Below are positions 10,962-64,000 of a stretch of 64,000 nt of DNA, piece after piece. The notes under the pieces were generated by a model. That model was not told where the DNA came from, searched no databases, and saw only the letters and a list, made by a program, of their open reading frames with translations. The DNA is from Warburgia ugandensis (taxonomy: Eukaryota; Streptophyta; Magnoliopsida; Canellales; Canellaceae): assembly GCA_035236585.1 (NCBI GenBank), contig CP141132.1, positions 20,807,945 to 20,871,944 of the forward strand. The letters are read 5' to 3'. Within the stretch, counting starts at the first letter, position 1. The number at the start of each line of letters is the position of its first letter. The position numbers were made by a program, and so were the translations under genes.

Positions 10962-10988
10962 CTCCTTAGGAAAAACATTTACGAACTC

Positions 10989-11462: not shown

Positions 11463-11489
11463 GTTTGTTTAAGATAAGAAATGTACCTT

Positions 11490-15700: not shown

Positions 15701-16170
15701 GAAAGAGGGAAAAGCTTATGAAACATGGCAAAACGGGGAGGAAGGGAGAAGGGGAAAAGCAAAAAAGATGACTTTGGGGGGGGGGGGGGGGTTTAAAACA
15801 TGGTAAAAATAGAGGCAGCAAGGCTGCACTATTTGCTTCCTGTTGTACATGTGACATGATAGGGGGTGCCATTATTAAAATACCCCCTTGCATTTCTGAC
15901 AATTTCTCATTTAAAATCAGATAATGGGCCCCACAAAAAATTATCAAAATGCCCCTCAACTTCAAACAGTCATAACTTTTCATTCAGACTCCATTTTAGG
16001 CATTCTTAGTGTCATTGGATTTCATATTTTGAGTGCTATGCAATAATCCATATTTAAACTCTCAATTTGGTCTCTACAAATATCAATTTTTTATAAACTC
16101 AATTTTCTTATTTTCATGAAATTCTTGAGTAATGTTATATAAATATGTGAAAAAATATATAGGTATTACA
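12789..16170 (-). repeat. Tekay 5' LTR
   Basis: 3,382 bp, plus-strand ends TGTGATACC and GGTATTACA. It matches 2013-8256 once the nested solo LTR is removed. Compared with its partner it carries a G homopolymer (15776-15791). No protein-coding signal is seen; frames at 12940-13607 and 15157-15983 are chance. Confidence 0.9.
15776..15791 (+). repeat. G16 homopolymer
   Basis: Sixteen consecutive G in the 5' LTR. The same spot in the 3' LTR (about 7864-7878) has GGGGG-AA-GGGGG, so this is a local expansion or loss of the interruption. Confidence 0.9.
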
Positions 16171-19055: not shown

Positions 19056-19627
19056 TGATAAGTGTTTAATTTTGCATAAAAACCACCCAATTAGCTACCC
19101 ATATGTTATAACTTATTGGGGTAAAATAGTGATTTTGACAAAAATTTGTAACATATGTATTCTTGACTTAATGACTAAGAAATTTGATACTTTGTAGGTC
19201 TAGAGGCTAATTTGAGATATGTGTGTGATTAATCATGTTTTTTTAGGACTTAATAATATTTTTTAACTTTGTGTATGAAGCGAGATGATGACCCGACATT
19301 TGAGATCGCTCGAGATAAAAATTCAAGATCAAGATTAAACAATCCAGTCAAAGCCTAAATATTGTGAATCCAACATGAGATCAAGGATGAAGATCAAATT
19401 TGTTTTTTTGGACAAACAATGGATGCAATTAAAAGAGCCAAGGGTGGACAAAGCGGGCCCATGCACAAGCCATGCAAATTCCACCATCTTTGCTTGGGTT
19501 TCACTTAAGCTACTTAGCCAAATTCAAGCCATGAACAAGGTGACAAGCTAAGATGCTAAGCCAGCCACCTAAGCCAAAGATTTGTGCCATCAAGCTAAGC
19601 CAAGAAAGCCATCTAAGCTAGCCATGG
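19056..19627 (+). repeat. 5' LTR of non-autonomous element, first 572 bp
   Basis: Starts TGATAAGTGTTTAATTTTGC and matches the first part of the 3' LTR (34345-34912), including the AAGCYAAGCCA-rich tract at about 19490-19620. It is cut at 19627 by a TGTGAC... LTR. The missing remainder starts near 27330. Confidence 0.88.
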
Positions 19628-22600
19628 TGTGACAATTTGAGTTTTTACAACACTTTTTCATGTTTATTTTTGAAAGGTAGGGCCCTTGTTTTTTAAAACA
19701 AGTTGAAAATCAAACAATGAAAAATGTTTTCTTTTAAATTCATTTTTAAAAGCTTGGTTGTCACATTCACCATCTCACTACATATATATATATATATATA
19801 TACATTTGTATGTAATTTAGAAAATACATATTTATACTAAACAAAATTTTGAAAATAGTATCCATCCAGTGGTGTACATACATAGCCTCCTTGTATTTAT
19901 TACATAACATGTCCAAAGCTTACAATCCAAGTGTTTAAGTAAACAATACAAGCTTCTAGTAAACAATACCAATGAATATAACTAAGTATATAACCTTGAT
20001 TAGTTGTAATATTATCGATATCCCTGAGTTGTATCCTTCCACTACTGTTTATCTGGATTTGAGATATTGTAAACATTTACAATATCTTAGCAAACTGTGC
20101 TTGGTAGGGGATTTAAGAAGCATATGGAATTTAAAATAAGAAACATAAATTGACAATTCCTCAATACTTCAAATATCCACATCCATCATATTCATTTTGA
20201 ATAAAGTAATTCAATTTCCATGAACTATTCAATGTATAGAAATTCTATAAGATATTCCTTCTCATATGCAATCCTTTGTAAACATATGCCCACAATAATC
20301 TAGATATAATAACACTACTACATATATATGTATGAAATGAATAGCATCAATAGTTTCCACGCCCCTGACTATACGGGGTCCATAATCATCTAGACTCTGC
20401 TGGTCCATATCCATTTGTACATATATCGGTAGTGAGCTCATACGAGGCATGTCATCATGCCATAACATTGGCACCATAGTGCAAAAAATAAAAGGACTAT
20501 TATGCTACAGTGCAATCCAAACCTACACGTTGGGATCATTTCCAAGTAATCCATTGATATCATGGTGGAAATATATAATGTCATTGTCTATATGGAAAGG
20601 TAGGACTTTCATAGTGGTGGCCTTCCCATAATTGCCCCACTCAACTTTTACCCCTCTTTTGGGCAAGGTATATATATCATCAGTTTTGGAGAGTGGGTAA
20701 CCAAACTCTCATAACTTTCCTAGTATAGCATCCATAGGCCTATGCTTGTCGAAAAAAAACCCATAGGACTCCATGCCCGAATGTAAAATAATGATACTAG
20801 TAGGCTATTTGCCTATCCATATATAAAATTCATAACAATATCATCATCCTCATTTATTAGGTACTCGTGTACCAAGGATGTAATTTATCACTTTAAATTC
20901 ATGAATAAATAGATAATATAATTGGTACCTATGTACCAAGAATATAATTTCATGGACATACAAATAATGAAAAATCAAATCATGCTTTTTAGATAATGAT
21001 AGCATAATTATAAACATAAGATTATTATATCATACTAACTAAATTATTACATATCTTAAACAATTAAAGCATATTAATTTGCAGTTGTTATATATGATAA
21101 ACAATTTAAATTCTATAAATATCATAATATTAAATAAGATCCTGTTTAGAACACAGATCTTGTAATTTAGAAATATTCATTCTTAAGATTCCACCTACCT
21201 TATAATGAGCGACTAATTCCTTCAAAATCATACTCCTTTTTGTCGGTGTAATATGGTATATTTTCAAATTACATGTATAATGCATGATTATTTTCTATCT
21301 TTTAGTAACACCTTTGATTTATCTTATTATTGATCACCATAATTTTGGATGATCTTACAATTGATCTTCTCTGATCATAGTCATATTTCTTTATGGTTTG
21401 TCTAATCATTTGATTCTAACCATTGATTATCAATTTATAGTCCCGATAGCTTGATATCTTTTATACTTGTCTAATATGTCCCTTATAGATAATTTTTCTT
21501 ATATTAAAATTGTTGACTATTAATCTGATGATTGGATCACCTTTTGATTAGTCAGATTTTGGGTTTTTGACTATCTTCTATGTCAATTCTAATTTATCTT
21601 AGTGTTAACGATAAATTTAACAGTTAAATTGGTTTAATTGCTCAATTTATAACTCAATTATATTAAATTTTAGTATTTCAATTAATTTGATTACACATCC
21701 AGAGTTTATGTGTTGATCTAACGGTTAGATCTAACTTTTGATCTATTAAATCCACAATCTTGATTTAAGCAATGTTTTAGATCATAATTTTTGACATATT
21801 TAGATATTCTGATAATGACATTGGTCTTAATATCCTACTATATTATCTAATTAATCATTTCTTAGGATCTGATCAATCTAGGCAATTTGATATTTTATGA
21901 GTCTTGATCAGTTTAAATTGTTTCTTGATCCTAAATTTTATTTTATTAGTAAGTCCTTGTAGTCAAAATGAATCCAATAGACTTTTCTGATAAAAAATCA
22001 AATTTGTATAGCCTACTGTATTAAAGATTTTGCATTTCAGATCTTTTAAATGACCAAGATTTAATCTGTTAAAATAATATAGTAAACAAATGTCACTGGG
22101 ATGCAGCGGTGTCATGGTCGATCCATGACTGCTCCACATGCATTGTGCACGCACAAAAATGGGCTAGACGGTGCATTCTTGTTGTGCATTTGCGTAGGCA
22201 TCTCAGTTGCAGATCAGATCAAAACCATTCAAATGATGCAATCTCGGCGGGCTATCTATTTTTTGTTTAGTTGTCTGACCTAGCTCTTCTATATTTTTAC
22301 TGATCTGGGGTTTTTAGCATCCCACTAATTCATTGCACGGTTTAGATTTTCCATCTGGGTCATCCTTGAGGTGATTCCCATCTAAATCCATCGGATTTGT
22401 TTTCACTAGCAAATCGCTAGTCCATGAGACCATATCAGCCAGTGAGAGATGGAAAAGAACACTGAAAAGGGAAAAATGGAAAGAGAGACGGAGAGAGTTA
22501 CCTAAAACAGCCGGAGGGGAGAGAGGAGCTGGTGACTCTAGTGGGTGTAGATGCCGGTTTGTGCTCATTGGTGAGTTAGGCAGGCATAGAATTGAGGAAA

Positions 22601-22738
22601 TAGAATAGGGGAAGAATGGGGAATCCTTGCTGGAGAATAAAGGAAAGAAAGGGAAAGGGATAGAGGGGCAGATGGATTGTGGTATTCAGTGGTGGCCACT
22701 ATTCGGTTGCCTCCTAGGGCCGAACTGAGGAGGGAGCA
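19628..22738 (-). repeat. Tekay-type LTR A, first part
   Basis: Starts TGTGACAATTTGAG inside the host LTR. It shares diverged blocks with the Tekay LTRs and with LTR B at 22739, including GATCTAACGGTTAGATC near 21715. It breaks at 22738 and seems to resume at 26588. The joined length (about 3.85 kb) is almost that of LTR B (3.85 kb), supporting a nested pair. Strand is inferred from the Tekay element. An AT repeat lies at 19779-19802. No coding signal; frames at 20262-22765 are chance. Confidence 0.65.
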
Positions 22739-25700
22739 TGTGACACCCCGGGTTTTACACAACATATATATACTAATTTTTAAAAAGCTGGGGTCCTTGT
22801 TTTAAGAACTTTGAATTTTAAAATCGACTAAAAACAAAAACTTGAATAAAAAATGTTCATTTCAAAAATCCCGAGAGTCATATGACCCACAAAATCATTA
22901 GTTAACGGTGGAATGATATTTCCATTTTTACAAAAAATTTGACAGAGTCTCCTCTATATTTTGGACCATCACATGCAATGCATGCGATACAACAATACTT
23001 AATAAATACAATAAACATAAACACACCACTAAGGAGACTCAGTCTCCATACCCATCCATCTAGCTCAATTATAATTCTTGATAAAACCATATACCTTAAC
23101 AGTAAATTAAAAATAAAAGATATAACAAATTGCCCACGGTCTTTCCAAGCATAGCCATCACATCCAATGTGAATGCATCCATACATCCAAGTCACCATGT
23201 AAACTATACAAATATACAATCCATAATAATAGCTGAGGTAAGGTTTTGAACACACCATGTCCATTATTGAAATTTCCTCTATGCATCCCATGAAGGCCTC
23301 CAACGTCCTCAACTACTCTGCCATCATGTCATACTTGCTACTTCTCTTTGTATTTGAGGTATTGCACAAAAATTGCAATGGCTCAGATAGCTATGCTCGT
23401 GTAGGTGATGACAATAATAATAAGGATAAACATTTAACATAGTATGAAAAGATCATACATCTAATCTTATGGTATGTGATAAAATATTGAACTCATGAAA
23501 ACAGTTCTAGTATAATTTCAAATATGAAATAAATGATGATGAAGTATAACATAATTAGCTTCAAAATCAATTAAATCAGTGGCAATATCCAAGGCATCAA
23601 AGGCCATAATATTGCTAAAAGTAAGGCAATGAATCTAAGCCACCTAATGTTCCAAACATGCTGAGAAAATAATGCTTCGTAAGCTTTTCAAATGACAATA
23701 TCAAATCGATGTAACTTATGCCAACCACATGTCTGAAAACTTGTCAAATTAACTGAACTTCTAAGGCTCATAAATATGCCAAAATTATGTTAATACAAAA
23801 CATCAAAAGCGTAGAGAATATATCAATAAATTTGCGTATCGACATCAACGACACCCTCACACAGGGGTCTCAAGAGTGTTAAAATCACATCAATGTAATG
23901 CATCAAATACACAAGGAATATCTCAATGAATATAAATTCCATCAATGCTGGGCACCCTAACATGAGGATCCCATGAGTGTACCATATACTCGTATGTCCA
24001 ATCATGAGTACTCATACCAATCCTCCACGCGTCATCATGCTATGGGTAAACAGGGAATATCCATCCTGGTGTGTTCTCTACATAATATAATAAAATTAAT
24101 TATTAAGAAGTGCATGGACCGCTATGTTACAATGGTAACCAACTCCCCGGTCTACCATTGCCGATCCATGTCAACACCAGAATGTGAGACAAAGCATCTG
24201 TCTCTCATGGGTGAGGATCAGAGCTATAGTGTGGATTACCTATGATACCACTCCCTATGGTGTTCGCCCTTCTATGAGGCAGGTGTCTAATCATAATCAT
24301 CATAAGTTAGAGGGCGGGTGGCTTGCCCTACAACCCTCTTAGTGTAACGTCCATCGAGCAAAAACACCCATCATAAATATGTAAAACATGAAAATCATTA
24401 GACAAATTAGAGTTGATAAATAGAATGAATTCCTTTAGTGAATAATGAAATCCAGGAGCACTTGTGGCTTGCCATCTCAATGCACTATCTTCATCCCAGG
24501 GTTAGCCTCTATAGAGACTAGCCACTAAGCCTCCTCCACCAAGTCCACGGTAAAACCAGTGATAAAATAAGGCATCCAAGTGCCTTAACATGCAAAAGTG
24601 AATAAAATCACCATCTGATGACTTCACAGGTCATAGGAGTATGCTAAAATCATGCTTCCATGGAAAATGGTGATCAATGAGATCATGCATGCATGCATGC
24701 ATCAGTTACAAATAAGACAAATATCTTAATCAATATCATGATATAATAATATATGCATAAAATTCATTCATAATCACAGAGTTGATGAGATGAAAAGCTA
24801 TAATTTCAAAACAACATGCCCATTATTAATCATCATCACCTACCTCATATGACAAAACTTGCATGTACCTCTTAAATCACAATTGAACTTTAGTCTAGCA
24901 TAGTCTACCTCAATCCCACTACCTAGATACACATCACATCTAGGTCTCATTTAGAATCCAAGTTATCCAAGTTGGATTCTTAATTATAAAACAACATTAT
25001 ATTTCCATATCTCAATATATCATGTTTCAATACAATCCAATGGTTCACAGCCATGGAATCTGTTGGGGCTCGCCCTAGTTGGCTAATAATTCAAATCACA
25101 CTAAATGGGGTCTACTAATAAGCATATGGTTCCTCTTCTTAATTATGTCATAATGTATAACAGGGCTATCATACTCAAATCAAGTCAATCTCAGGTACTT
25201 TATGGTTTAATCAGCCAATCAAGCACTATTATATGCAAATCATGCACAATCTTATGTAATTACAACTAAATCAATAAAATCAACTAGTTAGAATGATAAT
25301 TCTACCTCATGTATGTCCATCTGAAGGATATCTAGCTGTCCATGTTGCTAGATCATCAACCGATCGCCTTGAAAGTGATTAATCTAAGATATCCATACTA
25401 ATTTGGTCAAAATTCTCCACACGATCATCCTAGATCAAAGAATAAATTAGTAATTCTAATCAAATAATCTTAATAATTCATTCAAATAGTATGATCATTG
25501 CACTTGATCCAATTTCATACCCAAATCCTTAGTTGATCTCAGTCGGTGATTAAGATCGACTAGATCATCTCACAAATGCCCCAGATCCAATATATCTTAC
25601 ATGGATCTTGATCTACACCATGGACAGTTCAAATGTTACAAATCTCACATCATGAATTCCTTATTGGATCGCATCCAAATTGGATGCTCAAATGATCCTC

Positions 25701-26587
25701 CATCAAAAATCTAACCATCCCATAGCATTGATCATATCAAAATACGCCTAGGGTGTGTTTTTCACTAAGTTTCACAAGTCGTCGGCTTTGATTGGCCATT
25801 GCCAAAGAATGTAATTGGCGATTGCTGCTGATGACCCATTTCTTAATGGATCTCCAAATTTTTTAATGGGAGTTCTAGATCTGCATCTTGCCTACAATTC
25901 TATAAAACTTGGTGAAGATCTAATGTTGTTTGATGCCAAAAAATGCCAAAAGTGGGTTTTAGCCATCGAATTTTTGCCATTCGTTGGCGTCATCTTCTAC
26001 AACATGAATCTTCCTCCTTACTTGCCTGATTGCCATGATTCTTGAGGGATTTTGATTGCATGGTCTGGCTAAAGAGAATGATCGGCTTAGATCCTAGATT
26101 TGAGCCATCTCATCTCTGATGGCTCTATGAAATTTGGCACTCGAAAACCCAAATTTTTTGCCTCGCCACATCAATCACCATTCCCAGTGGATGGCTTCGC
26201 CCCACTCTCTCCCTTTCTCCTCTCCTTCCTCCTTCCTCCTTCCTCCTTCCCATTTTCATTCTCTTTTTACCATTATGATCGGCAATGGGTGATAGTCATT
26301 GACTGTCACCTTTCTTAAAGAAGGGGGGTGCCGTTATCAAAACAACACCTCCCTTTTGTAAATATCCTTTTTTTTACCAAAATGCCCTCCTAGTTTGAAT
26401 CATCATATCTTCTCCATATGAACTTTGATTTTTGTGCCATTTATGCTGTTGGAATCTTCTTGACACGTACATTCCAAATTTGATGGTTTTAAGTTCCATT
26501 TTTTTAGCTTTCAAAGGGGTCATTTCAATAGAATTCAATTTTCATGGAGTTCAATTCCTGATTTTATTTTTAATTAAAAATGTAACA
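22739..26587 (-). repeat. Tekay-type LTR B nested in LTR A
   Basis: Starts TGTGACACCCCGGGTTTT and ends AATGTAACA. Blocks around 23990-24360 (GAGTACTCATACCAATCCTCC, then CCATGATACCACT-like text and AAACACCCATCATAAATATG) closely match the Tekay LTR at 2880-3250, so it belongs to the same group. There is no internal region next to it. Flanks gagca and taaca agree at only 3 of 5 positions, so the TSD is decayed or my end is slightly off. The frames at 22902-26318 are not genes. Confidence 0.65.
24684..24700 (+). repeat. GCAT tetranucleotide repeat
   Basis: Short GCATGCATGCATGCATG run inside LTR B; a simple repeat that is also self-complementary. Confidence 0.8.
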
Positions 26588-26623
26588 TAACACACATAAA
26601 ATGACCCAAAATTGAGGGTTGTT

Positions 26624-26677
<54 letters not shown>

Positions 26678-27329
26678 GCATGCATGCTAGAGAAGAAACA
26701 AGAAAGGTGGTTGGATGGGTTTGTTGGGTTAGGGATGATGTGTGGATGGATGGCCGTTCTTTTGTCCCTGTGCCTCACGTTGGTAGATGCTCTGGAGGGA
26801 CAGAAGAGAGAGAAAGTGCAAGAGAAAGAGAAAGGGAAGAGGGAGGAAAGGAAGGAAAATGGAGAGGGAAGAGGTAGAGAGTTAGTGGAAAAATTCGTAA
26901 GCTATTTTAGATTTATTATATATATATATTTTATCTTTTATTTACTTTTATTATTTTTTATCAAAAAGTGGCTTCTCATGATTACAACTTTAATCATTAC
27001 AAATTCTTATACATGATGACTCATGGCCCACCTAACTTGTTGTGGGGCCCACATAAAAGTAAAATTACCATTTTTTCCTTACTTAATGAAATTAAATTCC
27101 AAAAATTAAGAAAGATATAAAAATTTCATCTGAACTCGAATTTTAGTGTTCTTTATGTCATTGGACTCAAATTTTCAAGTACAATCAAAATATTCATATT
27201 TCAACTCCTGATTCCATTTCTATAAAAAGTTAACTTTCTTAGAATCTCAAATTCCAATTCTTCTTTCAAGATTTTCAACTCACATCTTCAATAAATCAAA
27301 TATATTAAAAAAATTGGGGTTATTGAACA
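26588..27329 (-). repeat. Tekay-type LTR A, remaining part
   Basis: Contains a GA microsatellite, a purine-rich stretch and an LTR tail ending GGGGTTATTGAACA, comparable with GGTATTACA in the Tekay element. After it the host Athila-type LTR resumes (agctcttacacttag from about 27347, matching 34912). The exact end is uncertain between 27329 and 27342, where GCCAATGG echoes GCCATGG at 19621-19627. Confidence 0.6.
26626..26675 (+). repeat. (GA)n microsatellite
   Basis: About 50 bp of uninterrupted AG repeat. The ERERER frames across it on either strand are artefacts. Confidence 0.95.
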
Positions 27330-27703
27330 TAAAGCCAAGCCAATGGAGCTCTTACACTTAGCCATCAAGCCACATAAGCTAAGCTACGTGGAAGGCCATG
27401 ATTGGATGAAAATCTAAAGAATTATCCTTGAATTTATGGAGATATGTTGAAGATAATTGAGGGAAAATCCATTAAGATAAGTAACATGTGGGCAAATAGG
27501 AAGAGGCCTCTCCATTTTTAATTTTTAATTTTATGTTTTTTTAACACTTTTCTCTCTCTTTCCACCTCCCCACTAAGATGCACAACGAATTACAAAGAGT
27601 CATATATTTCTAACACCTCCCCACCTTCCAAAACTACTATTCCAACCATCTAACCAATCCTCACTTCCCAGGAAACCACCTGGCCAATCACTTTTCCCAT
27701 AAC

Positions 27704-28109
<406 letters not shown>

Positions 28110-29667
28110 AGCTAGCCACTTGTTATCTCTTGAAAACCTTAGCTAACCAATCATCCTAACCATCCAATTCTCTTTATTTGTCATCCCCACCCTACCTTTA
28201 CCTTAGGACATCATAAAAAACTTAGTAAACAAAACATAGAAGGGCTAAAAGGGATTAAAAAAAGGGAACTTTTGAAGGAAGAAAAGAACCCCTCCTCCAA
28301 AGTGAAGAGCCATCCTCTTCCTTCTGTTCTCCCGTTACCTCTTTGCATTCAAGGATTTTCTCTTAGGGTGGCTGCAATCTCTCCTAATGTCCTATGCATG
28401 ATTTAAAGGTTTTATTCCTTAGTTCTTCAAGTAAAAGTTAGTTGGTTCCTTTGTCATCTTTCACTCTTTGTTTGATCTTGGTTTCCATAGTTTCTTAGTT
28501 TAATGCTTTTACATTCCCTTTGTTCCTCTTGCTTGTATATTCAAGATCCAAGGTTGCTTTTCCCTTTAAGTTACAAACAAGGGAAATCCACCTTGAGTCT
28601 ATCATTTTTCCTTGTTTTTAATTGCCCTTAGATCTCCTTTAGTTTCATTGAAATCCTTTCTTGTTTTCCTTAGTGTTACTCAGGCTTTCCCTTTAGTTTT
28701 TAGTGGATTTTCTCTTGATTTCTATACTTGCTTATTCATAATTGATGTTGGAACATTGAAGAAGGTTTATCTTGTAGTTTTGGGTTGCTTAATATCGAGT
28801 GGCATTCATTGTTATAGGACATAATTTTCAAATTTGGATTGCATGTATTGTGGGCTTTGTTTTGATGAATTTTAATGCAATTCAATAAAGTTAATTGGAG
28901 TTTTCAATTCATGCTTGTGTCTAGATGTTATTTGTCTTCATTCATGAATTTTGCATGCATTGGAATTGTTTAATTCCATGGTTTTCATGTTCCATCAAGT
29001 GAATGATTTATATAGCATGCTGTTGGAAATTTTCTTTATGGTTTGTTATTTTTAATTTTTAGAGCCATACACTTTATGTTCACTTGAATTTTTAAGATCT
29101 CAATTAGATTATTAGATTATTGAATTGATGCTTGAGTAAGATTGTGTGCTTTAGGTTTTCAAAGTAGTTAATTAGATTCATCCCTACCTAATGAATCATG
29201 CATACCATTCCATGGTTACACGATTGATACTTGGGGTGGTTTTCCTTTCTTTGATTAATTAGTAATTGCTTTCATTTGTTTTATTGTCTAGTTGTAGTTT
29301 AGTTTAGATTTCACTGTTTATAAGATGCATCTTACTTTAGTTTCTAAATTCTTAGTTTAGGAAAGTTTTAAATTTAAAAAATTTTCATTTAGGAATGTTT
29401 TATTGTTAGAATTTGTGTTTTAGGAAAGTTTTAAAGTTTAGCATGTACTTTTAGCATAGTTCCATCTTTCATATCTTGCATTCGTTTTTAGTTTCAATCA
29501 TTAGTTTAGGTTAAAAATCCTAAGATGTTTTGCTAGGTTAGATAATTTTAGGAAGGACCCACTAGTCACACATCCGTTCAGTTCCTCGTTGGAGTGAACT
29601 CCTTGGATGAATTACTACATTTGAATCGTGTACTTACGAGTTTCAACTTAAAATTACAACAAGTTTT

Positions 29668-29688
29668 TGGCACCATTTTTGGGGAATC
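29668..29688 (+). other. Degenerate tRNA-Asp primer-binding site
   Basis: TGGCACCATTTTTGGGGAATC, six bases after the LTR end, compares with TGGCGCCGTTGCCGGGGATC, the complement of the plant tRNA-Asp 3' end used by Athila elements. It identifies the upstream LTR as 5' and supports the Athila relationship. Confidence 0.75.
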
Positions 29689-31099
29689 ATAACTGTTTGT
29701 ATAAGTGGACCATACCTTAGATTATATACCTCTAGTTTAGGTTTAGGATGCATTAGTTTAGGGTTTTGCATTATTTTTTCATTTATTTGCTATTTCCTTA
29801 TATTAACCATTATTGTTTGATTTTCGTGTGAGAAAAATTGGCAAAGAAGCAATGACAATCTTGTAGGCCATGGCTTCATCAACATAGATTAAATTTTCAT
29901 TGCTTTTCTAGATTAAGATTTGAGTAAAATTATAATGGGGCCCATGGTAATTCTAATTCTAATTTTATTTAATTTTTAAATGGGTTGTAATAATACAAGA
30001 TAAGTGTGGGGTATGGTGGCCCACACTTGATCTTCATCGGACCCCTCATTGTGAGCAATCCTCACCCAAATTTTAATTTTTAGGATATAGTGCATTTAGT
30101 ATAATTTTGCATTTGTGATGGTAGTATAAATTATATATATTAGGGTTGTGCCTTGATAACCATTGCATAATACTTAGGATTGTTGCATTAGTTCAAGCAC
30201 CCATTTAACATTGGTTAGCCTGAGCTTGACTATAGCCAAAGCATAGGGTGCATGGTTATAGTATCCCATATATTAAGGTTCCTGACCCTTTGTTAAGTAG
30301 CATATAAATAGGCATTAGTTTGAATTTTGTTTTGTATTGCATGTTTACAACTTTTTGGTGGAATGGAACTTAATGCTGGTAAGGGTCCCATAGGAAGCCT
30401 TATAAGATAAGGACTGGATTTCATCACAAGCTCCTTAACCCACTTAAGAATCAATCAACAGCCTTGTATGTCACGATCTCAACCCTTGAACATAAATTTA
30501 AAACAAGTAGAAAGAGACTTAGGGTATGGATCTTATAGAACCCTTTTAGAAGGATGAGACATAATGTCACTCCAGTGGCTTTAGCACAGTAGTTATAATG
30601 GGTGTCTTAAAATCCAAGAGATTTTTTCACTCCTTCTATTGACATCAATTGAGGTCTAAATGCCTCCTGACACGAGGATTATACTAACCACTTTAGAGCA
30701 ACACCCAACTAGTAAGCAGTAGTCAAATTTGGATATAAGGAGGAGCTGTCTAGATCTAAGTCTAAGAACCTACCACCTATGTAGTAAGAAAAGATAATCA
30801 ATACATTGCTTGATTAGTGAATGCTAAGATTTGATTGTGCATCATTTAGCTTTGGACTAGCATTTAGGATTCATATAGTTAGGGTTTTACATTTAAAAAC
30901 TTTACCCAATTGATTGTATATAACGATTTGTTTCATTGTATACAAAGTTGAGAACAAAGGCTTATTGAGCTGGGGGTAGATTTCATAGATTAGATACAAC
31001 AATAGATAGGATAGATACTATAAAAAGTTAATTGCTTAAGATGATAGCTTCTAGGCAAGCTACTCAATAGTATTAGTACCATAATGACTATCCCTATTT
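29689..31099 (+). other. Internal leader region of non-autonomous element
   Basis: Non-coding by eye. From about 29980 (TTGTAATAATACAAGATAAG, GTGTGGGGTATGGTG, CACACTTGATCTTCAT) to about 30700 it is related to 41490-42140 of the gag-pol-bearing Athila region, showing common ancestry of the leader, where a packaging signal would lie. Confidence 0.6.
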
Positions 31100-31760
31100 T
31101 GAGCATCCCTATACCACTCCTACATGGTCATCAAGCTCCAATTACAATGAATATTATCAGGAGCCAATGGATGCACCTAGTGCATTTACACATCCTAGTA
31201 ATGACTACTATCCTGAAATAGTCTATCAAAATGGATGTACTAGGAATCACGAACAATCATGGTCTCAGGATTACAATACCTGGAAGAACCACAATGGTCC
31301 CGCCTCAGTCAACACTACAATGATTATTCATATTATCAGGGTCAACCATCATGGATTCAACCTACTCAGCCCTTTTTTAGCATCCCCAAAACCACGTCAA
31401 TACCAACCCTATGAGCCATTTACTCTATAGCTTGAAGAACCACCATTAGAAGAGAATACGCAACAAATTTGTGAGAGAATAGAACAAATCATGGATACCA
31501 TTGAAAAGGAGAATGAGAAAATGAAACAAGAGAGGGAGGAATGGGAAAAGAAAATGAAACCAATATGGGAAAATACTGAAAGAAACATTGTTGAATTTAT
31601 AAAGACGATTGAGGAATTCTAACCAATTGGGGATAATAAAGACCCATTTATTACTAATAATAGGATGAAAATTTCTTATGATCATTTTGAGCCACTAAGT
31701 CCACAACCATCCATAGAAACCTGCCACTCATATCTACTCGAGCCATTCATGCTCCTTGTT
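31100..31760 (+). pseudogene. Tyr/Gln/Pro-rich and coiled-coil ORF of non-autonomous element, N-terminal part
   Basis: With two or three frame changes the plus strand encodes a Tyr/Gln/Pro-rich stretch (YYQGQPSWIQPTQPFFS, then PRQYQPYEP). A charged segment predicted to form a coiled coil follows (31450-31620: ICERIEQIMDTIEKENEKMK, then QEREEWEKKMKPIW). A stop follows IEEF. The minus-strand copy at 62950-63580 encodes recognisably the same text. The style recalls low-complexity N-terminal gag regions, but I see no gag core or zinc knuckle. The minus frame at 31446-31685 is a shadow. Function unknown. Confidence 0.6.
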
Positions 31761-32200
31761 ACAATTATGATGAAGAGACTTCCATTGATGACGATAATGA
31801 ACCCTTAGAAACATTCAATCCAGATCCTCTAGGATCATGTCTTGCTCATTTTTATGATTTTGATGAAGGCACATCTATTGTTGAGGTGAATGTGTTGTTG
31901 GACACTGTGCCATTAATGAACACTTCCCAATGACAAGCTAGAGTAGAACCACTTATAGATCTTGAAATTTCAATTGAGCCATGCAATGTAGAAGATGTAC
32001 TTGATTCGAACTACAAAACTTATTTGAGCATTCATTAGAAAGTAATATAGGCCCAATTGAAACCTTACTTGTGCTAGAAGAACAAGAAGAAAAAGAGGCC
32101 ATTGATATATTTGCCCTACATCAGCCAACTCTAGGGTACACTTTAGAAGATACTAAAGGTTTAAGCTTCAACATGTCCCCGCCTCTAATAATACAAGAGT
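31761..32200 (+). pseudogene. Acidic middle part of the same ORF
   Basis: Plus-strand text EETSIDDDNEPLETFNPDPL and SCLAHFYDFDEGTSIVEVNV, followed by VEPLIDLEISIEPCNVEDVL and further Glu-rich stretches, is strongly acidic and broken by several stops. It links the coiled-coil part to the repeated C-terminal module. No match to a family I recognise. Confidence 0.5.
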
Positions 32201-32259
32201 AACCTTTTTGGGAAGGGTAGAGACGCCTTATACCCCCATTTCATGACAATGTAAGGGAA

Positions 32260-32625
32260 ATGGAGGACAAAGATAAACTGAGCATACTGGTCAATGCTAT
32301 CCCTAAAATTGGTAAAAATAAGGACCATTCATCCCCATATGGTCTAACAAATTTTAACTCCATGGTAATTCAAGATGTCATTGTATTACCATGGCTCAAA
32401 ATACAAGGTAGAGGAATTATGTTGACTACCATGAAATTTTAAAGATGGAGGATCATCAACGTGATTCCACCAAATTTAAAATTGTGGCGGTCTGTTTGGT
32501 TATAATGATATCACCACTTACAATTTCAAGGTAGAGAATGTATATAGACTACTGTGAGATTTTGAAGTGGCGTGAGAAATCTTTCCATTTCATTCTTAGG
32601 ATTAGAATTAGGAAAAATTAGTTGA
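32260..32625 (+). pseudogene. C-terminal two-module region (YGPT/RWR repeat), plus copy
   Basis: Two tandem modules of about 38 residues. Module 1 starts SSPYGLTNFNSMVIQDVIVL and, after a one-base shift near 32405, continues with a stop at the RWR tryptophan codon, then RNYVDYHEILK. Module 2 reads TKFKIVAVCLVIMISPLTIS, again a stop at the RWR tryptophan, then MYIDYCEILKWREKSFHF. Both tryptophans are TAG where the minus copy at 62097-62435 has TGG. The conserved tail FILRIRIRKN ends the ORF. I do not know this domain. It lies where pol would be in an autonomous element. Confidence 0.6.
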
Positions 32626-34340: not shown

Positions 34341-35296
34341 CCTATGATAAGTGTTTATATTTGCATACAAACCACTCAATTAGTTACCCATGTGTTATAC
34401 TTATTGGGGCAAAATAGGGTTATTGACCAAAATTTGTAACACATGCATTTTTTACCTAATGGCTAAGAAATTTGATATTTTGTAGGTATAAAGGCTAATT
34501 CGAGGTAAGTGTATGATTAATCAAATTTTTCTAGATTTAATTAGAGGTTTTAACTTTTTGTAGGAAGCAAGATGATGATTTAACGGTAGAGATTGATCGA
34601 GATGAAAATTGAAGATCAAATCAAAAGATCGAGTCAGGCCTAAAATTCATCAACCCAACATGAGATGAAGGATGAAGATCATTTTTTTTTTTTTGATAAG
34701 CAATGTATGCAATCAAAAGACCCAAAGGTGGAAAAAGTTGACCCATGCGCAAGCCATGCAAAGTCCACTACCTTTGCATGGGTTTCACTTTAGCCACTTA
34801 GCCATATTCAAGCCATGAACAAGGTGATAAGCTAAGGAGCCAAGCGAGCTACCATAGCCAAGGTTTTGAGCCATCAAGCTAAGCCAAGAAATCCATTTAA
34901 GCTAGTTATGAAGCTCTCAAACTTAGCCATCAAGGCATATAAGCTAAGTTACATGGGAGACCATGATTGGAGGCAAATCCAAAGAATTAATCCTTGGGAT
35001 TCATGGGAATATTTTGAAGATAATTGAGGGAAAATTCATATGGATAAGATATCATGTAGACCAAAAGGAAGAGATCTCTCCATTTTTTTTAATGATTTTT
35101 TGCATTTTTTCCACTTTTTTCTCACTTTTCACCTTACCACTAAGATGCACTACCAATTTCACTTTTCATTTACGTGTCCTATCTTTCTTAGGCTTCCAAC
35201 CTTCTATTCTAACTATCTAACCAATCTTCACTTCCCAAGAAACCACGTAGCCAATCACTTTTCCCCACTTCACCTCTCTTTCTTAACTTTTCATAT

Positions 35297-35300
<4 letters not shown>

Positions 35301-35382
<82 letters not shown>
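35301..35382 (+). repeat. (CT)n microsatellite in 3' LTR
   Basis: About 82 bp of uninterrupted CT; the shorter counterpart of 27709-27880 in the 5' LTR. Confidence 0.97.
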
Positions 35383-35386
<4 letters not shown>

Positions 35387-36804
35387 TCATCCCATCCACC
35401 TAGACTTGCTATTTCCAAGGGCCTCAATGATTTTTGAAGGGGGAGATTCCTTCTCCTAAAAAATGGCATCTCCCCACCTCAATACAATAAAAAAGGAAAC
35501 CACTTGGTACCTCGTGAAAACCCTAGCTAACCATCCATCCTAGCCATCCAATTCTCTTTATTTTCCATCCCCACCCTACCTTAACCTGGTGACACCCTAT
35601 TAAACTTAGGAAACAAAACATAAAGGTCCAAAAGGGATTTAACAAAGGGAACTTTTGAAGGAAGAAAATAACCCCTCCTCCAAAGTGAGGAGGCATCCTC
35701 TTCCTTTCGTTCTCCTGTTACCTCTTTGCATTCAAGGATTTTCTCTTATGGTGGCTGCAATCTCTCCTAATGTACCATGCATGAGTCCAAGGTTATATTC
35801 CTTAGTTCTTCAATTAAAGGTTAGTTGGCTCCTTTGTGATCTCTCTCTTTGTTTGGTCTTTATTTCCATTGTTGCTTTGTTTAATGATTTTCCATTCCCT
35901 TAGTTCCTCGTGCTTGTTTATATAAGATCCAAGTTTACTTTTCCCTTGAAGTGACTTCCATGGGAAAGCCACATTGAATCTATCCCTTTTCCTTGTTTTT
36001 AGTTGCCATTAGATCGTCTTTATTTTCATAGAAATCCCTCCTTGTTTTCCTTAGTGTTACTTATGCTTTGCCTTTAGGTTCTAGTGTTTTTTTATCTTAA
36101 TTTCTATTTGTGCTTATTCATGATTGATGTTGGAATATTGAAGAAGGTTTAACTTGTAGTTTTGCATTGCGTAAGATCAAGTAGCATTCATTGTAATAGG
36201 ACATAATTTTCAAATTTGGGTTACATGTATTGTGGGCTTTATGCTGATTGATTTTAATGTAATTCAATAAAGTTAATTGGAGTTTTCAATTCATACTTGT
36301 GTCCACCAGTTATTAGTCTTATTCTTGAATTTTTCTTGCATTAGAATTGTTTAATTCCATGGTTTTCATGTTTTAATAAGTGAATGATTTATATAGCACG
36401 ATGCTTTAATTTCCAGAACCATACACTTTATGTTCACTTGAATTTTTAAGATCCCAATTAGATTATTATTTAATTGATACTTGAGTAAGATTGCATGCAT
36501 TAGGTTTTCAAAGTAGTTAATTAGATTCATCCCTACCCAATGAATCATGCATACCATTCCATGGTTACACGCATGATACTTGGGTAGTTTTCTTTTCTTT
36601 GACTAATTAGTAATTACTTTCATTAAATTTATTATTTAGTTGTGGTTTGGTTTAGATTTAATTGTTTATAAGTTGGATCTTACTTTAGTTTCTAAATTCT
36701 TAGTTTAGGAAAGTTTCAAATTTAGAAAATTTTCATTTAGGAAAGTTTTATTTTTAGAAACAGTGTTTTAGAAAAGTTTTTAAGTTTAGCATGTTTACCT
36801 TTAT

Positions 36805-42443: not shown

Positions 42444-43499
<1,056 letters not shown>

Positions 43500-43910
43500 T
43501 GTAATGCCCGAGCAATTTACGCTATTTTTAACAAAAATTGGACATTTTATGGAAAATAAACTGTGTTGAATGTTTCACTTTATTTAAAATAGTAAACAAA
43601 GGAATTTTTAAGGAAACTTGGTACCATTAGATTCTACTCAAAAAATGGAATCCAACGCCTCAAAAATCACCCAAAACAGAGTTCGTATGAAGAAGTTATA
43701 GTCGTTTAAAGATAGGGGTATTTTTGGAGATTAAACAGAAAAACGAAAAAAACGAAAAAGGACGAAAAACACAGGGGGCCGTTTTGATAACGGCACCCCT
43801 GTCGTCTTCAACCTCAAGAACCCTCCATAAACCCTAAATCCCAATTTTTCTAGAGAGATCTGCCACCGCCATGGCAGCACCGCCATTGAGGGGCACTGCC
43901 TTCACCTCTC

Positions 43911-43918
43911 TATAAAAA
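43911..43918 (+). promoter_or_regulatory. LTR TATA box, solo LTR copy 2
   Basis: TATAAAAA after CACCTCTC, aligned with 3896-3903 of copy 1; the CCCCTCTCCAAAAACA stretch follows in both. Confidence 0.7.
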
Positions 43919-44166
43919 CCCCAACTCCCCCTCTCCAAAAACACAAGTTTTTCGGCGTTTTTCCAATCGTTTGAGACTGGGGTTTCCAGAAAAAACCGGA
44001 AACCCATCTCTCTGTGTTTTCCGGCAATGGCCAGGCCAAGTCTGGCCAGCCATCCCTTTGCCATTCCCCTCTCTTCCCTTTCCGATCTTGGTATGGGGGT
44101 TTCCTCTTCACGAAATTCCGATGGCATGGGGTTTTCAAAACCGGAACAGAGGAAGACCAGGCTGCC

Positions 44167-44174
44167 CAGGTAAG
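44167..44174 (+). other. Candidate splice donor in solo LTR copy 2
   Basis: CAG/GTAAGC about 255 bp after the TATA box, in the same place as the donor in copy 1. Confidence 0.45.
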
Positions 44175-46302
44175 CTGTCCTTCACTTCCACTTCCCCAAG
44201 TAAAAACCAGGTCGGACCTAGCATTTTCTAGCCGAAAATTGCAGAACCCAGGACCGGACCGACGAGGGAGACGGTCTTGGGCATGGTGCATGATGCACAC
44301 CTGACTGAGCCCATGGACGGACCCTAAGCACACCACAGTGCACGAGGGCATGCGACTGTGTATGGGCATAGCCTCGGTGCATCCTAGGCACAATCCAGGC
44401 TTGACCAGGACGCATGGGTGGCCCGGGAGCCAAGGCACATTTCAACTACGCTAAGGTGTGTTCGCGTGAGGTCATCCAGGACGCGCGTCATAGCATGTCA
44501 CTTAGGCATGCTTGTGCACATGCGAACACTGTGCCAGGTATGGCCTTCGGGTACGTGTGCAACATGGGGCACGGGTCCTAGCTCGACCAGGATGCATGGG
44601 GTGCCTTGGGAGCTGAGATGCACCATGCTACAAGGTGCGTCCGTGTGATGATGCACGTCATAGTGCGTCACTTGAGCATGCATGTGCGTGTGCAAAACGG
44701 GGTCTATGGCACGGCCTTTAGGCACACACGCATGTGAGGTGGTCGCAATGCAACCAGGATGCACGAGTGTCTTGGGAACTAGGACCCAATGAGACTTTAA
44801 AAATTAGGATTAAAGGATAAATTATAGAGTTTAACTATTGGAAAGTAGATCCATGTCATAGGATCTAGCCTGGCAATGAATTAGGCAAGGACCATTGACC
44901 CTAAACAGCAGATTTAGCGGTCTAATAGATTAAAATTAATAAGGACTCCTTGTATCCATTCATACCTAGGAGTTTATAAATGAGACCCAGGGACGGGTTG
45001 AGTGCTAAAGGACGCGACTCCAGGAGACTTTGAGGTAGGTGCTCTATCGCTACTAGACTTTTAAAAAGAGCCATGATTGTTTTGAGATTGCATGTTTTAA
45101 GTATACGTATATGACTTGTTTAGCATGACTTATTTGATGACTTGTTTAGCATATAAATGAATTCAGTATGCATAGGATAAAAACATTATGCATAGACATG
45201 CTTTGCAAATAATTATATTGCATGATTTGTGAGCATTGCGTTCTTGCAAAATTGCATGTCCTTGAGGGTTACCAAAAGACGCTGGGTAGGCAGTTGTGAG
45301 GGACCCAAAGAGGACAGGTTTTGAAAAGATGTTTTTGGCTTGTTTGATCGTACATGATTTGGGTTAATAAGCTCGTGGGCGCTGTGCTGAGAGGTCTGGG
45401 GTGGCCTCCCATCCTCTACCACTATTAGGTGGATGGGTACCACGCCCAAAAAGGGCATGTCCTTGCTTCGACTGCATGTGGTACAGGGGGCTACCACTGG
45501 TGTCATGGCACTGGGTCGAAGTGTCATATGCCTCGTGGAGGTATATGATCCTGTGTCCCTAGGTACCCGGGGACCACATGGCGGTGAGGTCGTGGGCATA
45601 GTTGGACCCTATGGTTTGAGGATTTATGTGCATTGGATATGGCATGACATGAGGTTGGTCGACCATACCATATATCCATGAGTTGGATTCAGTGGGGCAT
45701 CTTGTGCACACCATTATGTTATGATATATAGATGATACTTTCAACTTGGATTATGAGATTCTTTAATTGTCAGTATTTCAATTCGACAGTGGTTTGTAAT
45801 ATCGGTATTGAACATGGTTGTTCGAACATGCACATGTTTTAAGGAGCATATGATTTTAAACATAGCATACATTGCAAAACGAGTAGTGATAGACTCCTAC
45901 TGAGTATAATATATACTCACCCTATCCTTAACATTTTTCAGGATAGTTCCACTCACAAATAGAAGATGTCTCAGGAGATATTAGTGTTATGAGCAAGTGA
46001 ATCAAATAGGAGACAATTATACATGTAAGTAAACTCCCAACCCTTTGGACATGTATTTGTATTTATTTACAATTGGGCTGTGTGTTGTGAATGGATAGAC
46101 CTGGGGAAAATATTTATGATTTTTGAAGTTTTTCAAGAACTACTTTGATTGTTGTGAAAGCAAATGACACTCGGGGTTTTCAAATTGAATTTCAAATAAA
46201 AGAATTTTTCGCTGCGTTGCATTGTTTTTTTCAAATAGGGATCCCGCCTTAGGAATTTAGATTTTTCATTTAAAAATGAATGAGAAAACCCAGGTCATCA
46301 CA

Positions 46303-57537: not shown

Positions 57538-60333
57538 TGTTGTTTTAAATAAAACTTGCAAGTACTCGAATCATTTGCAATATAGTATGCTAGGGAGGTC
57601 GATCCCATGAGGAGTTGAACTAGTGTGATGCTAGTGGTTCCTACTCTAAGTTTTCTAACTATCCAAGCTAATGAGATTTTAATCTAAACTAATGATGGAA
57701 ATAAAAAATGTATGAAATTAGAAACTTTCTAAAGTTAGAACTTTCAAAACCTAAACATGAAAAATTTCTTCAATAACTTAACTTGCACAATAAACTTAAA
57801 ACAATAATATAACTAATAAATCAAAACATGTACTAGTTATGTAAACAACTAAATGAGTGGCATGCATAAAATTAAGCTAGAAAGAATGCATGAAACAAAG
57901 TAAATATGAGGTATGGATGAACATAACAATATGCATGAACTATGATGCAAAAATAATCTAACATGGAATGCATGAATGGAACTAGAATTTGAGCATGATA
58001 ATCTAATCTAAACTAAGCAATTTGTCTAAGGGAAAACACCTTGAAACCATGTGTATTGACCATGGGTTTATGTGCATGATTTATGGAGTAAACATAGACT
58101 GAAATCAATGGACCTCTGGCTAACTATCATGCAATATACTCTAATAACTAAACACAAAATTTAAAATATTAATTAATTTCTTAAAGAATAACTTAGACCA
58201 TCACTAAATAATGTGAAGAATTAATAAACAAGGTGGTAGTTCTATGTTGCCGCAAATTCCAGCACCATGCTGTTTCCAATTTCCAAGTAATCAACACATA
58301 AAGGCATAACTTTATATGCATTAAAATATTTGATTCAGTAGTTCTTCAGTACTGAAAACAAGTGTAAACAAGAACTTCAATTGATTTCATTGAAACGGTA
58401 TCAATTACATCCAAAAAGTTGCATGCATAAAACATATGCATAATGCTGGAAACTGCATTCAATTCAACACATAAAACTTGATTAAAATCAATTCTAAAAC
58501 ACCTTCCAAAACCCTCAAACTGATCTCCTCTGATATGCAAGTGGTTTCAAAGAGAAAAGAAAGAGAAAAAATGGCTGGACTAATGAAGGAACTTAAGGAA
58601 AGGAACACCTAAAACTATGTCTATCTCTAAGAAGAAAGAATGGAATGCAAAGAGGGAAATCAAAGACTCAAGCAATTCTTCTCTTGGCTGTCACCAATAG
58701 GGAAGAATTAAATTGTTTCTTTGAGGAATAAGCAAGGGAAACTTAGAAGTTGAAAGCAATTCAACAAGGTAAACAACAAGGGAACCTAATGAAAATGAGG
58801 CTGGAATTCAAGGGAACCAAAAGGAGAACTAAATGGCAATGAAAAGCAAGGATAAGATTAGATCCAAGGTGACTTCTCTTGGCTGTCACCTCAAGGGAAA
58901 TCCAACCTTATACCTTAATCTTTAGGCAAGGAAAAGTAAGAAAATTGAGAATAAACAATGAGCAACAAAGGGAGAAAAATCAAACAAGGAGAAGTAAGGA
59001 GACTAACCAATCTTCAAGGAAGAATCAAACACCCAAGACATAGGTTTGAACACTTGAGGAAGCAATAACACACCTTGGAAGGGAATAGCAGCCACCCAAA
59101 GGAATCCACAAAACATAAGAAAAAGAGGGTAAATGGGCTGTAGGAAGAGGCCATCCTCCTCTCTAATGGAGGAGGCGAAAAAAGACTTTTTTGCTTAGAT
59201 TTTTGCTGGGTTTTTAAGCTTTCTACCTATTTTTTCTAGGAGTCCCTAATGCTAAGGTGTGGTGGGGATTAAAATGAGTCAATTTGAATGTCTAGGATGG
59301 GGGAAAGGGAAAGATATCAAATGAAAAGGTGTGGGGAAGGAGGTGACTACCTTAAGGAGGGGAGCTGGTGGGAGACGCCACCTTTTTAAGAAGAGGCATC
59401 TTCCCCCTTCCAAAATCATTGAAACACCTATGTTTTAGGAAGGTGCGTGAGAATGAGGTGGAGAGTTTTGGTTGTTTGGGAAGTTTCCTAGGAGGTGGAA
59501 TGAGATATAGTTTTGGAAATTTGTAGTGCATCTTAAGGGTGAGGTGGAAATTGAGACAAAATTGGAGAAAAGTGAGGAAAACACTAAAAATGGAATGCTC
59601 TTATACCATTGATCCACATGCCATCTTATTCTAATAGATTTCCCTTAATTATTTTCAAAATATCCCATGGATAACTCTCTTGAATCTCCTCCAATTCTAT
59701 CCTTCCATTTAGCATAGCTTGATGGCTTAAATGGCTAACTTTGAAGGCCCCATTGGCTAAGCTTCATAGCTGGCTTAGGAAGCTTTATTGACTTGACTCA
59801 TTGGATTCATCCCATTGCTTGAGTGGCTTGTATAGTTCTTCTAGAATTCCTTATCATGCCACCTTTTTTTATGTCTTATATGGCTAAGGTGGCTTAAGTG
59901 GCTCCCATGCAAAGGTGGTGGGAATGCATGGCTTACTTCATAGGCTCACTTTTTCCATCTTTAGCTCCTTTAATTACATCCATTAATGGTCCAAAATATG
60001 ATATTGGGATTTTGTTTCATGTTGAAGTGATGATTTTGAGGATTTGAGTTGATCTTTTGATCTTTAATTTTATCCCGATCGATCTTGACTATCGGATCAC
60101 CATATTACTTCCTACAAAAGTAAAAAATCTTAATTAAATCCTAAAAAACATTATTAATCATATAATTACATTTAATTAGCTTTTGAACCTACAAAATATC
60201 AAAATTTAGCATTATTAGGTAAAAAATGCATGTGTTATGAATTTTGCTCTAAAATCTTTAATTTACCCCTATAAGTTGTAACACATGGGTAACTAATTGA
60301 ATTTAATTTATGTAAAATTAAACACTTATTACA
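57538..60333 (-). repeat. 3' LTR of second non-autonomous element, minus strand
   Basis: On the plus strand it runs from TGTTGTTTTAAATAAAACTT (57538) to ACACTTATTACA (60333), so the minus strand starts TGTAATAAGTGTTTAATTTT and ends AAACAACA. About 2.80 kb. It has the stem-loop block (59370-59406) and the ATGGCTTAAGTGGCT tract (59700-59950). The purine tract GGTTGGAGGG directly precedes it on the minus strand, which makes it the 3' LTR. Its 5' LTR is beyond the window or lost. Confidence 0.82.
59370..59406 (-). other. LTR stem-loop block (second minus LTR)
   Basis: Minus strand: GGGGAAGATGCC, a loop TCTTCTTAAAAAGGT, then GGCGTCTCCC. The arms pair with one G-U wobble and one mismatch/bulge, unlike a random diverged inverted repeat. 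Confidence 0.55.
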
Positions 60334-62096: not shown

Positions 62097-62435
62097 CTAA
62101 TTTTTCTTAATCTTAATCCTAGGAATGAAATGGCAAGATTTCTCATGCCACTTCAGAACCTCACGATAAACTATGTATTTCCTCCACCTTGAAATTTTAA
62201 GTGGTGGTAATAATATGACATTGCGGACCACCACGATTTTGAATGTTGTGGGACCATATTGATGATCCCCCATTTTTAGTATTTCATAGTAGGCAATATA
62301 ATTTCTCCACCTTGTATTTTGAGGTGGTGGTAACATGATGACTTCATGTAGTACCATGCATTTTGTTGGACCATATGGAGACGAATGGTCCTTATCTTGA
62401 CCAAATTGAGGGATAACATTGACCAATTTATTCAA
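62097..62435 (-). pseudogene. C-terminal two-module region (YGPT/RWR repeat), minus copy, open
   Basis: 112 codons open on the minus strand. After MNKLVNVIPQFGQDKDHSS come module 1 (PYGPTKCMVLHEVIMLPPPQ, NTRWRNYIAYYEILK) and module 2 (QYGPTTFKIVVVRNVILLPP, LKISRWRKYIVYREVLKW). A basic tail with IPRIKIKKN ends it. The modules share YGPT, V-I/L-x-LPP, RWRxYIxYxE and LK, evidence of an internal duplication. The plus copy at 32260-32625 keeps the same layout but has TAG at both RWR tryptophans. No known domain recognised. Confidence 0.65.
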
Positions 62436-63184
62436 TTTATGTTTTTTCTCCTTTTCCCTTACATTGTCTTAAAATAGGGTAATAAGTTGACTCTACCCTT
62501 TCTTAAAAGGGCTTAAATCCTCATTCTCTTCTGATGCGTACCCTAAAGTAGGTTGATGTACATCAACTGACTCTTTTCTTTCCTATTTTATGAGCACATG
62601 TAAGATGTCAAATGGGCCTATATGACTATCTTGTGATTGTTCAAATAAGGTCGGTAAGTCCCAGTCAAGTACATCTTCTACATTATAAGGTTCAATATGA
62701 ATTTTAGGCTTTATATGGGGATCTACTCTAGCTTGCCATTAAGAATGTCCAATAAAGGCATAATATCCAATAGCTCATTCACCTCCTTAATGGATGGTCT
62801 TCATCGAAGTCATAAAAATAAGTGGGACACGAATTTAGAGGTTTTGGGTTGGATGTTTCGACAGTTTTATTTTCTTCATCAATGGAAGTCTCTTCATCAT
62901 AATTGTAAGGAGCAGCACATGGCTCAAGTAGATATAAGTTGGAGGGTTCTATGGATGGTTGTGGACTTTATGGCTTAGAATGATCATAAGATATTTTCAT
63001 GCTATTTTCAATAACAAATGGGTCTTTAGTATCCCTAATTTGTTTTATTTTCGTAGTCCTTTTTATACCTTCAGTAATGTTTCTATCAATATTTTCCATT
63101 TGTTTCATTTTCTCAATCCATTCCTCCATCTCTCATTTCATTTCCTCATGCATCTTTTCACTAGCAGCCATGGTTTGTTTTATT

Positions 63185-63456
63185 CTCTAAAAAAATTATT
63201 GCATATTTTCTTTTAATGGTTGTTCTTCATACTATAGAGGAAATGACTTGCAGGGTTGGTATTGCTGTGGCATTTGGGTACTAAAGAAGGGCTGAGCAAG
63301 TTGAAACCATGATGGTTGACCTCTAAAAAAATTGTTGCATATTCTCTTTTAATGGTTGTTCTTTATACTTTAGAGGAAATGACTCGTAGGGTTGGTATTG
63401 TTGTGGCATTTAGGTACTAAAAAAGGGTTGAGCAAGTTGAACCCAAGGTGGTTGAC
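63185..63456 (-). repeat. 136-bp tandem duplication in the ORF
   Basis: Two adjoining units (from 63185 and 63321, both starting CTCTAAAAAAATT) about 90% alike by eye. On the minus strand they encode a repeated QQYQPYESFPL...KEQPLKENMQQFF segment. The plus copy has only one. Confidence 0.85.
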
Positions 63457-63546
63457 CCTAATAATCAGAATAATCATGGTAGTGTTGATCAAGGTGGGAC
63501 TATTGTGTTTCTTCCTAATATTGAAAATCCTGAGACCATGGTTATT

Positions 63547-63582
63547 CATGATGCCTAGCCCATCCATGATGCCTAGCCCATT
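63547..63582 (+). repeat. Short direct duplication (CATGATGCCTAGCCCATC)
   Basis: The 18-bp unit starts at 63547 and is repeated from 63565, with only the final C missing at the end of the second copy, next to the junction with the LINE fragment. Confidence 0.75.
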
Positions 63583-63825
63583 CTTTCTTAAACAATTGAT
63601 AGAGAAATATACATATATGAGGAAGGACCTCCACATGGTCTTTATTGACTTAGAAAAGCCTTATGATGGGGTCCCTAGAGAGTTAATATGGTGGGTATTG
63701 GGCGAGAAAGGGGTTTCATGGGGGCATATATATAAAATTAAGGATATGTATGAGGGAGTGGTAGCAAATATTAGGACCACTAGTGGAGAGATGGTTGATT
63801 TACCTATCAATAGAAAATTGAACTA
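63583..63825 (+). pseudogene. L1-type LINE reverse transcriptase fragment
   Basis: The plus strand reads LKQLIEKYTYMRKDLHMVFI, then DLEKPYDGVPRELIWWVLGE, SWGHIYKIKDMYEGVVANIR and TTSGEMVDLPI. This is the RT motif A region of plant L1 LINEs (family wording HMVFIDLEKAYDRVPR), including the catalytic aspartate in FIDLEK. The usual GLHQGSxLSP block does not follow; a stop occurs after NRKLN. LINEs copy RNA directly into a nicked chromosome. It is 5'-truncated and was either inserted at, or joined to, the broken end of the minus element. Confidence 0.85.
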
Positions 63826-64000
63826 AGGGGAACCTGAGCTATATGATGCATATTAAAGGGCACACAGTTAATCTTAACCTTATGATAAACAAGCTGAAAG
63901 GTATGGTTTTTCCTTATTTTCTTTGAGGGGTGACTTTTAGGTTATTTCTAAGCTAGGTTGCTCCTCCTCTCTTTTAAACTTGCCCTACTACTTACTAGTT
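63826..64000 (+). other. Window end, unassigned (possible LINE remainder)
   Basis: Immediately after the RT fragment. GAACCTGAGCTATATGATGC and later GGGTGACTTTTAGGTTA do not give a readable RT continuation by eye. No other feature seen. Confidence 0.35.

Follow-up and report, generated by a model that had tools for sequence, protein, structure and literature searches.

The duplicated module encoded near the right-hand end of our window (the whole 64,000-nt stretch of Warburgia ugandensis DNA analysed here) is the C-terminus of an ORF product of ~510–530 amino acids, carried by a high-copy, pol-less retrotransposon family. The family is probably non-autonomous, of Athila type and mobilised in trans, and the product is most likely an accessory protein or derived from Gag. 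Elements of this large, pol-less sort tend to be viewed as passive passengers; if the frame described below has been kept through the subfamilies, then some pol-less elements contribute, or hijack with, a ~520-aa protein of their own.

A duplicated module at the end of a long ORF

The copy of the module in the window belongs to an element on the minus strand, which we call element B. The open C-terminal part of its ORF is a stop-to-stop frame at 62097–62468 (123 codons plus stop), with both modules and a basic tail inside (pI 9.97). The modules are ~36 residues each, lie in tandem and share the pattern YGPT…LPP…RWRxYIxYxE…LK; self-alignment places module 1 (YGPTKCMV...YEILK) at 62274–62375 and module 2 (YGPTTFKI...REVLK) at 62151–62258, both on the minus strand. 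A first-pass annotation, made from the sequence of the window, had described this tandem arrangement, and the duplication is far above chance level: the two modules of the window copy align with a score of 101, against a maximum of 46 and a mean of 21.8 in 2000 shuffles, the module region of another copy (L072) aligns to itself with a score of 85 (shuffle maximum 48), and the DNA of the two 117-bp units scores 45, with 1000 shuffles reaching no more than 25. Two details of that annotation change. It had ended the frame at 62435, which is an internal TTG and no boundary, the frame reaching 62468; and it had treated the module as a protein by itself, when it is instead the C-terminus of an ORF of ~510–530 codons with its own ATG.

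Further copies were collected from the genome (1.12 Gb in 14 contigs). Searched as DNA, the window copy yielded 3722 candidates, of which the best 40 were scored and are 86–91% identical, and the copy in element A, the second family member in the window, yielded 3383, the best 40 scored at 79–86% (query itself aside in each case). A protein search gave 6106 candidates, and the best 150 scored include a third set with ~59–66% amino-acid identity, our subfamily C. The candidates represent a first look in which only the best ones were scored, and their totals are no measure of copy number. The subfamily A and B samples consist of the top DNA matches to their respective queries and are biased. Five of the eight long C copies were chosen for openness (L071–L075, selected since long stop-free frames were listed there), and L068–L070 were taken from the protein list, among its stop-free matches. 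The 20 pieces L076–L095 are the sole ones picked via the N-terminal part of the ORF; two of these 20 subfamily-C pieces, L078 and L091, lack a module at the distance where it should lie, and with no module match they were excluded (2 of 28 C loci). The ORF-wide alignment excludes 7 of 22 long copies, whose upstream sequence is missing, and copy WA was handled separately.

In subfamily C the module forms the C-terminal ~115–135 residues of a single ORF, 522, 530 and 509 codons long in L071, L072 and L073, three of the five copies picked for openness; L074 has a stop within module 2, at 478 codons, and in L075 a single stop just 5′ of the module splits the ORF. A stand-alone protein of 112–123 residues was considered and is ruled out, as these open subfamily C copies show the end of a longer ORF. 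Nine of the 14 B copies and all 8 C copies have ATG as codon 1, and a TAG immediately precedes it in 7 of the 8 C copies. This is the sole ORF found in the element and starts ~1.2–1.3 kb past a site resembling a primer-binding site (PBS). From N- to C-terminus, its protein has a Y/Q/P-rich acidic part, a charged segment that is probably coiled, an acidic stretch, two predicted strand-helix units and the basic tail; the whole is acidic (pI 4.4–4.7) and the C-terminal segment basic (pI 8.5–9.8). CCHC, protease and reverse transcriptase-type motifs are absent from the L071–L073 protein. Single-sequence structure prediction of the module (P0001) had a mean pLDDT of 43 and was unusable.

Architecture of the elements

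Element A, on the plus strand, can be aligned to element B over ~3.9 kb at 72–81% identity. Its 5′ LTR is in two pieces, the first ~560 bp at 19055–19621 and a larger one at 27343–29446 (extent of the blast match), which match neighbouring parts of the 3′ LTR, 34345–34905 and 34908 onward; ~7.7 kb of inserted DNA (19622–27342) appears to split this LTR. There follow a PBS-like site at 29668–29685, after acaaca-agtttt, an ORF remnant at 31002–32621, with ATA at the ATG position of other copies and several stops and shifts, and a 3′ LTR at 34345–36794, which begins TGATAAG and has a G-rich tract before it. The frame-broken homologue that the first-pass annotation had placed on the opposite strand is the module region of this remnant, found by tblastn at 32245–32621 (+) in two pieces (E 1e-26 and 3e-9) with internal stops. 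In element B, the beginning of the 3′ LTR is seen at 59516–60332 (-), from the extent of its match to the 3′ LTR of element A, and alignment to the family assigns 62469–63570 (-) to the frame-broken upstream part of the ORF. Element B has no start codon, because family similarity ends near 63570, and an intact start is missing in both window copies.

Some other features of the window and the copies are recorded here. A 145-bp tandem duplication (63185–63329 and 63321–63464, 90% identical) lies within the upstream part of the element B ORF, and long CT/GA microsatellites occur in the LTR at 27716–27880 of the window and in the leader of L068, just 5′ of the ATG. Adjoining the broken end of element B is a fragment at 63583–63830 (+) that has no Pfam match at E 0.01; in its motif it resembles a plant LINE reverse transcriptase. 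Degenerate Ty3/Gypsy pieces lie at 10536–11468 (-), with a match to aspartyl protease (PF08284, E 2e-14) and a weak one, under its cut-off, to reverse transcriptase (PF00078). The segments 2050–8256, 12852–16170 and 43497–46302 form another repeat family, 74–82% alike over long stretches, with G+C partly higher than in the remaining window.

The LTRs are ~2.5 kb in the long copies (LTR pairs ~2.1–2.5 kb) and the internal region is ~4.7 kb. Twelve of the 22 long copies, reference L018 included, are collinear from about -2200 or further upstream to at least +1690 relative to the module start. With the internal region thus collinear there is no room for pol, and the description of the element as pol-less holds: an LTR pair and an internal region without pol are common to many insertions. 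The remaining 10 long copies are truncated at one end, have been replaced in part, or are rearranged. In one copy (L026) two partial module regions occur in tandem, with ~2.8 kb of other DNA between the partial ORF copies.

The seven copies displayed have a G-rich tract 5′ of the 3′ LTR, whose start is TGATAAG or similar, and we describe this tract as a polypurine-tract (PPT)-like site. Ten of the 22 long copies and all three C copies compared carry, between -2.4 and -2.6 kb, a PBS-like site with at most five substitutions from TGGCGCCRTTGCCRGGGA, mostly 3′ of acaaca-agtttt or similar and most clearly in L068. Likeness to TGGCGCCRTTGCCRGGGA points to the tRNA-Asp PBS of the Athila lineage, and in this respect the element carries Athila-type signals, in keeping with the Athila-like label of the first-pass annotation. 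The Pfam profile for Athila ORF-1 (PF03078) had no match in the genome and was uninformative, having none in 14 control genomes either; it is reported from 16% of Athila elements (PMC6317226). The LTR pairs of the 11 measurable copies differ by K2P distances of 0.113–0.177, and the insertions are therefore old.

With the LTRs, PBS and polypurine tract apparently kept as cis signals, we propose a likely cycle of packaging in trans, reverse transcription and integration. The LTR would drive transcription and the single ORF would be translated; the element RNA would be packaged and reverse-transcribed by the Gag-Pol of an autonomous Athila relative acting in trans, and would then integrate. The ORF protein, most likely a Gag-tail remnant or an accessory protein, may join the particles of this partner or hold the element RNA. 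The ORF would be kept during bursts and decay after insertion.

Searches for known relatives

The best Pfam match of the module was PF15563 (E 0.018), under its cut-off, and that of four long ORFs was PF19732 (E 0.021), likewise under the cut-off; nine shorter ORFs had no family over the cut-off. The best matches among PDB sequences (E 1.2 and 6) were sub-threshold, and among IMG/VR viral contigs two stretches fit a pattern and none was a relative. By unrecognised we mean absent from Pfam and PDB and without relatives among the IMG/VR contigs; the literature was checked by words, not by sequence. The first-pass annotation had known no family with the module signature, and Pfam and PDB, with no confident match, agree.

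A Gag domain, by which TR-GAG elements and the gag ORF of pol-less Athila elements are recognised, was sought as PF03732, absent from the four long and nine shorter ORFs alike, and as a CCHC motif, also absent. Because neither a Gag domain nor a CCHC knuckle was recognised, descent from Gag is argued from position and composition: the place of the ORF after the leader, its Y/Q/P-rich and charged segments and the lack of a capsid, a knuckle and pol would all suit a Gag tail, whose basic C-terminus may bind RNA or particles.

The hydrophobic strands of the module could instead be membrane segments of a retained env-like (ORF3) Athila protein. Over 19 residues, hydropathy peaks at 1.74–1.75 for L071 and L072 and at 1.57 for L073, presumably close to the usual membrane threshold, but the maximum is 1.27 in the window copy and the hydrophobic runs are short. 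Athila elements with gag and env and without pol are known (PMC2410132); yet here the only ORF found starts ~1.2–1.3 kb past the PBS-like site, and no Pfam family exceeds its cut-off. We consider an env-like origin very unlikely. Capture of host genes has been described for plant LTR elements (PMC7264820), and such an origin of the ORF would accord with the lack of similarity to catalogued retroelement domains. We give it only a slight chance here: the best 150 of the 6106 tblastn candidates form an unbroken series of element copies with 59–81% identity, query aside, although a low-scoring host gene would fall outside this set.

Retention of the reading frame

Between subfamilies the reading frame has been kept, while within them the copies decay approximately neutrally. 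All seven fixed indels that separate B from C within ORF codons 1–509 (14 B versus 8 C copies) have lengths divisible by three. In the flanking controls, which comprise three C copies only, this holds for 15 of 51 (3/15 downstream and 12/36 upstream), and the upstream control may reach into the first few codons of the B copies. With 22 such indels in the total of 58, the chance of seven out of seven is ~6 in 10,000, calculated by hand. A 1-nt indel at codon 510, within the tail region of differing stop codons, makes this 7/8 if counted. This indel test is the strongest of the tests for selection, and it supports the proposal of the first-pass annotation that a coding sequence was retained where gag-pol is missing. 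Four of the five fixed indels directly 5′ of the ATG likewise have lengths divisible by three, and L075 is open for 29 more codons upstream of it; coding may once have reached further upstream.

Stops are depleted, with 29 in 2695 codons of the module frame and 116–253 in each of the other five frames. Modules free of stops and gaps number 1/21 in A, 9/40 in B and 13/26 in C, the last biased by choice. Plain dN/dS within subfamilies was tried as a test and proved uninformative. Wrong frames gave similar values, and spectrum-corrected, net between-subfamily, codon-position and indel tests were therefore used. Within subfamilies, spectrum-corrected omega is 0.96, the two remaining forward frames giving 0.94 and 1.01, and K0/K4 for A, B and C is 0.92, 1.07 and 0.77. 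Between subfamilies, the net dN/dS of the module is 0.43 for B–C (bootstrap interval 0.22–0.88), 0.46 for A–B (0.22–1.10) and 0.64 for A–C (0.36–1.26), with 0.57–2.1 in the other five frames; ratios by codon position are 0.51, 0.64 and 0.67, with intervals that reach past 1. Over ORF codons 1–396, the B–C net dN/dS is 0.77 (0.54–1.13), a wrong forward frame being lower at 0.53 (0.39–0.74), and the ratio by codon position is 0.98 (0.71–1.35), so that ORF-wide B–C substitution tests over these codons show no significant selection. Substitutions thus give at best moderate backing to selection on the module, and over the remaining ORF they give no backing.

These substitution results count in favour of a relic, i.e. 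a frame that came from a coding ancestor, has been functionless since pol was lost, and is still readable as the bursts came from few young copies. The neutral-looking evolution within subfamilies, the non-significant ORF-wide tests with a control frame that scores lower, and the age of the insertions given by their LTR pairs all fit such a history. Against it stand the in-frame fixed indels (whether counted as 7/7 or 7/8), the depletion of stops, an ATG kept across diverged subfamilies, and the existence of copies with a long open ORF. On balance we regard a relic as rather unlikely. The first-pass annotation had itself named what would speak against a kept coding sequence, namely dN/dS near 1 across many copies with no conserved start codon, or a confident match to a known domain. 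Copies within subfamilies do look neutral, but its reading survives because the ATG is kept in 9/14 B and 8/8 C copies and no confident domain match was found.

It is also conceivable, if unlikely, that the ORF encodes a selected, new trans-acting protein in place of a decayed Gag, a hijacking factor whose duplicated strand-helix module would bring the element RNA into autonomous Athila particles. From sequence alone, a protein of the element's own cannot now be distinguished from a decayed Gag.

Comparison with known systems

The internal region of large retrotransposon derivatives (LARDs) is usually described as non-coding; unlike them, the family here has an ORF of 509–530 codons, with its ATG retained and its frame conserved between subfamilies. 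In its paired LTRs, its length (>2 kb) and the absence of any recognised domain, it agrees with the definition given for LARDs (PMC6022998). As in TR-GAG elements, the family is non-autonomous with at most one coding region past the 5′ leader, but here Pfam recognises no Gag domain (PMC6022998). The ORF is also reminiscent of the additional ORFs described in plant LTR retrotransposons, which are conserved, of unknown role and present in many copies; those adjoin gag-pol and mainly sit 3′ of pol, ahead of the 3′ LTR (PMC7264820), whereas here gag-pol is absent.

Within the Athila lineage, Diaspora and Calypso have a tRNA-Asp PBS ~5 bp after the LTR (PMC1142308), and our family shares with them the PBS offset, the apparent tRNA-Asp type and the long LTRs. 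Its untranslated leader is ~1.2–1.3 kb, compared with 873 bp in Diaspora, and it differs from Diaspora in that the latter has a full gag-pol ORF of 1892 codons (PMC1142308).

Dependent elements that carry their own genes have been described before; the protein here is unmatched in Pfam and PDB. Of the 11 Athila families that gag defines in Arabidopsis, 7 are without pol (Marco and Marin 2008, PMC2410132, Table 1), and purifying selection has been reported for the ORFs of the pol-less Athila elements tested (PMC2410132). Our family is like these in being made up of LTR elements without pol that were amplified as whole families (PMC2410132). The Arabidopsis ORFs are recognisable as gag and env, whereas here there is one unrecognised ORF, with no CCHC motif and with a duplicated C-terminal module. 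If that ORF is merely the tail of a Gag, the family would be a further case of the pattern known from Arabidopsis Athila.
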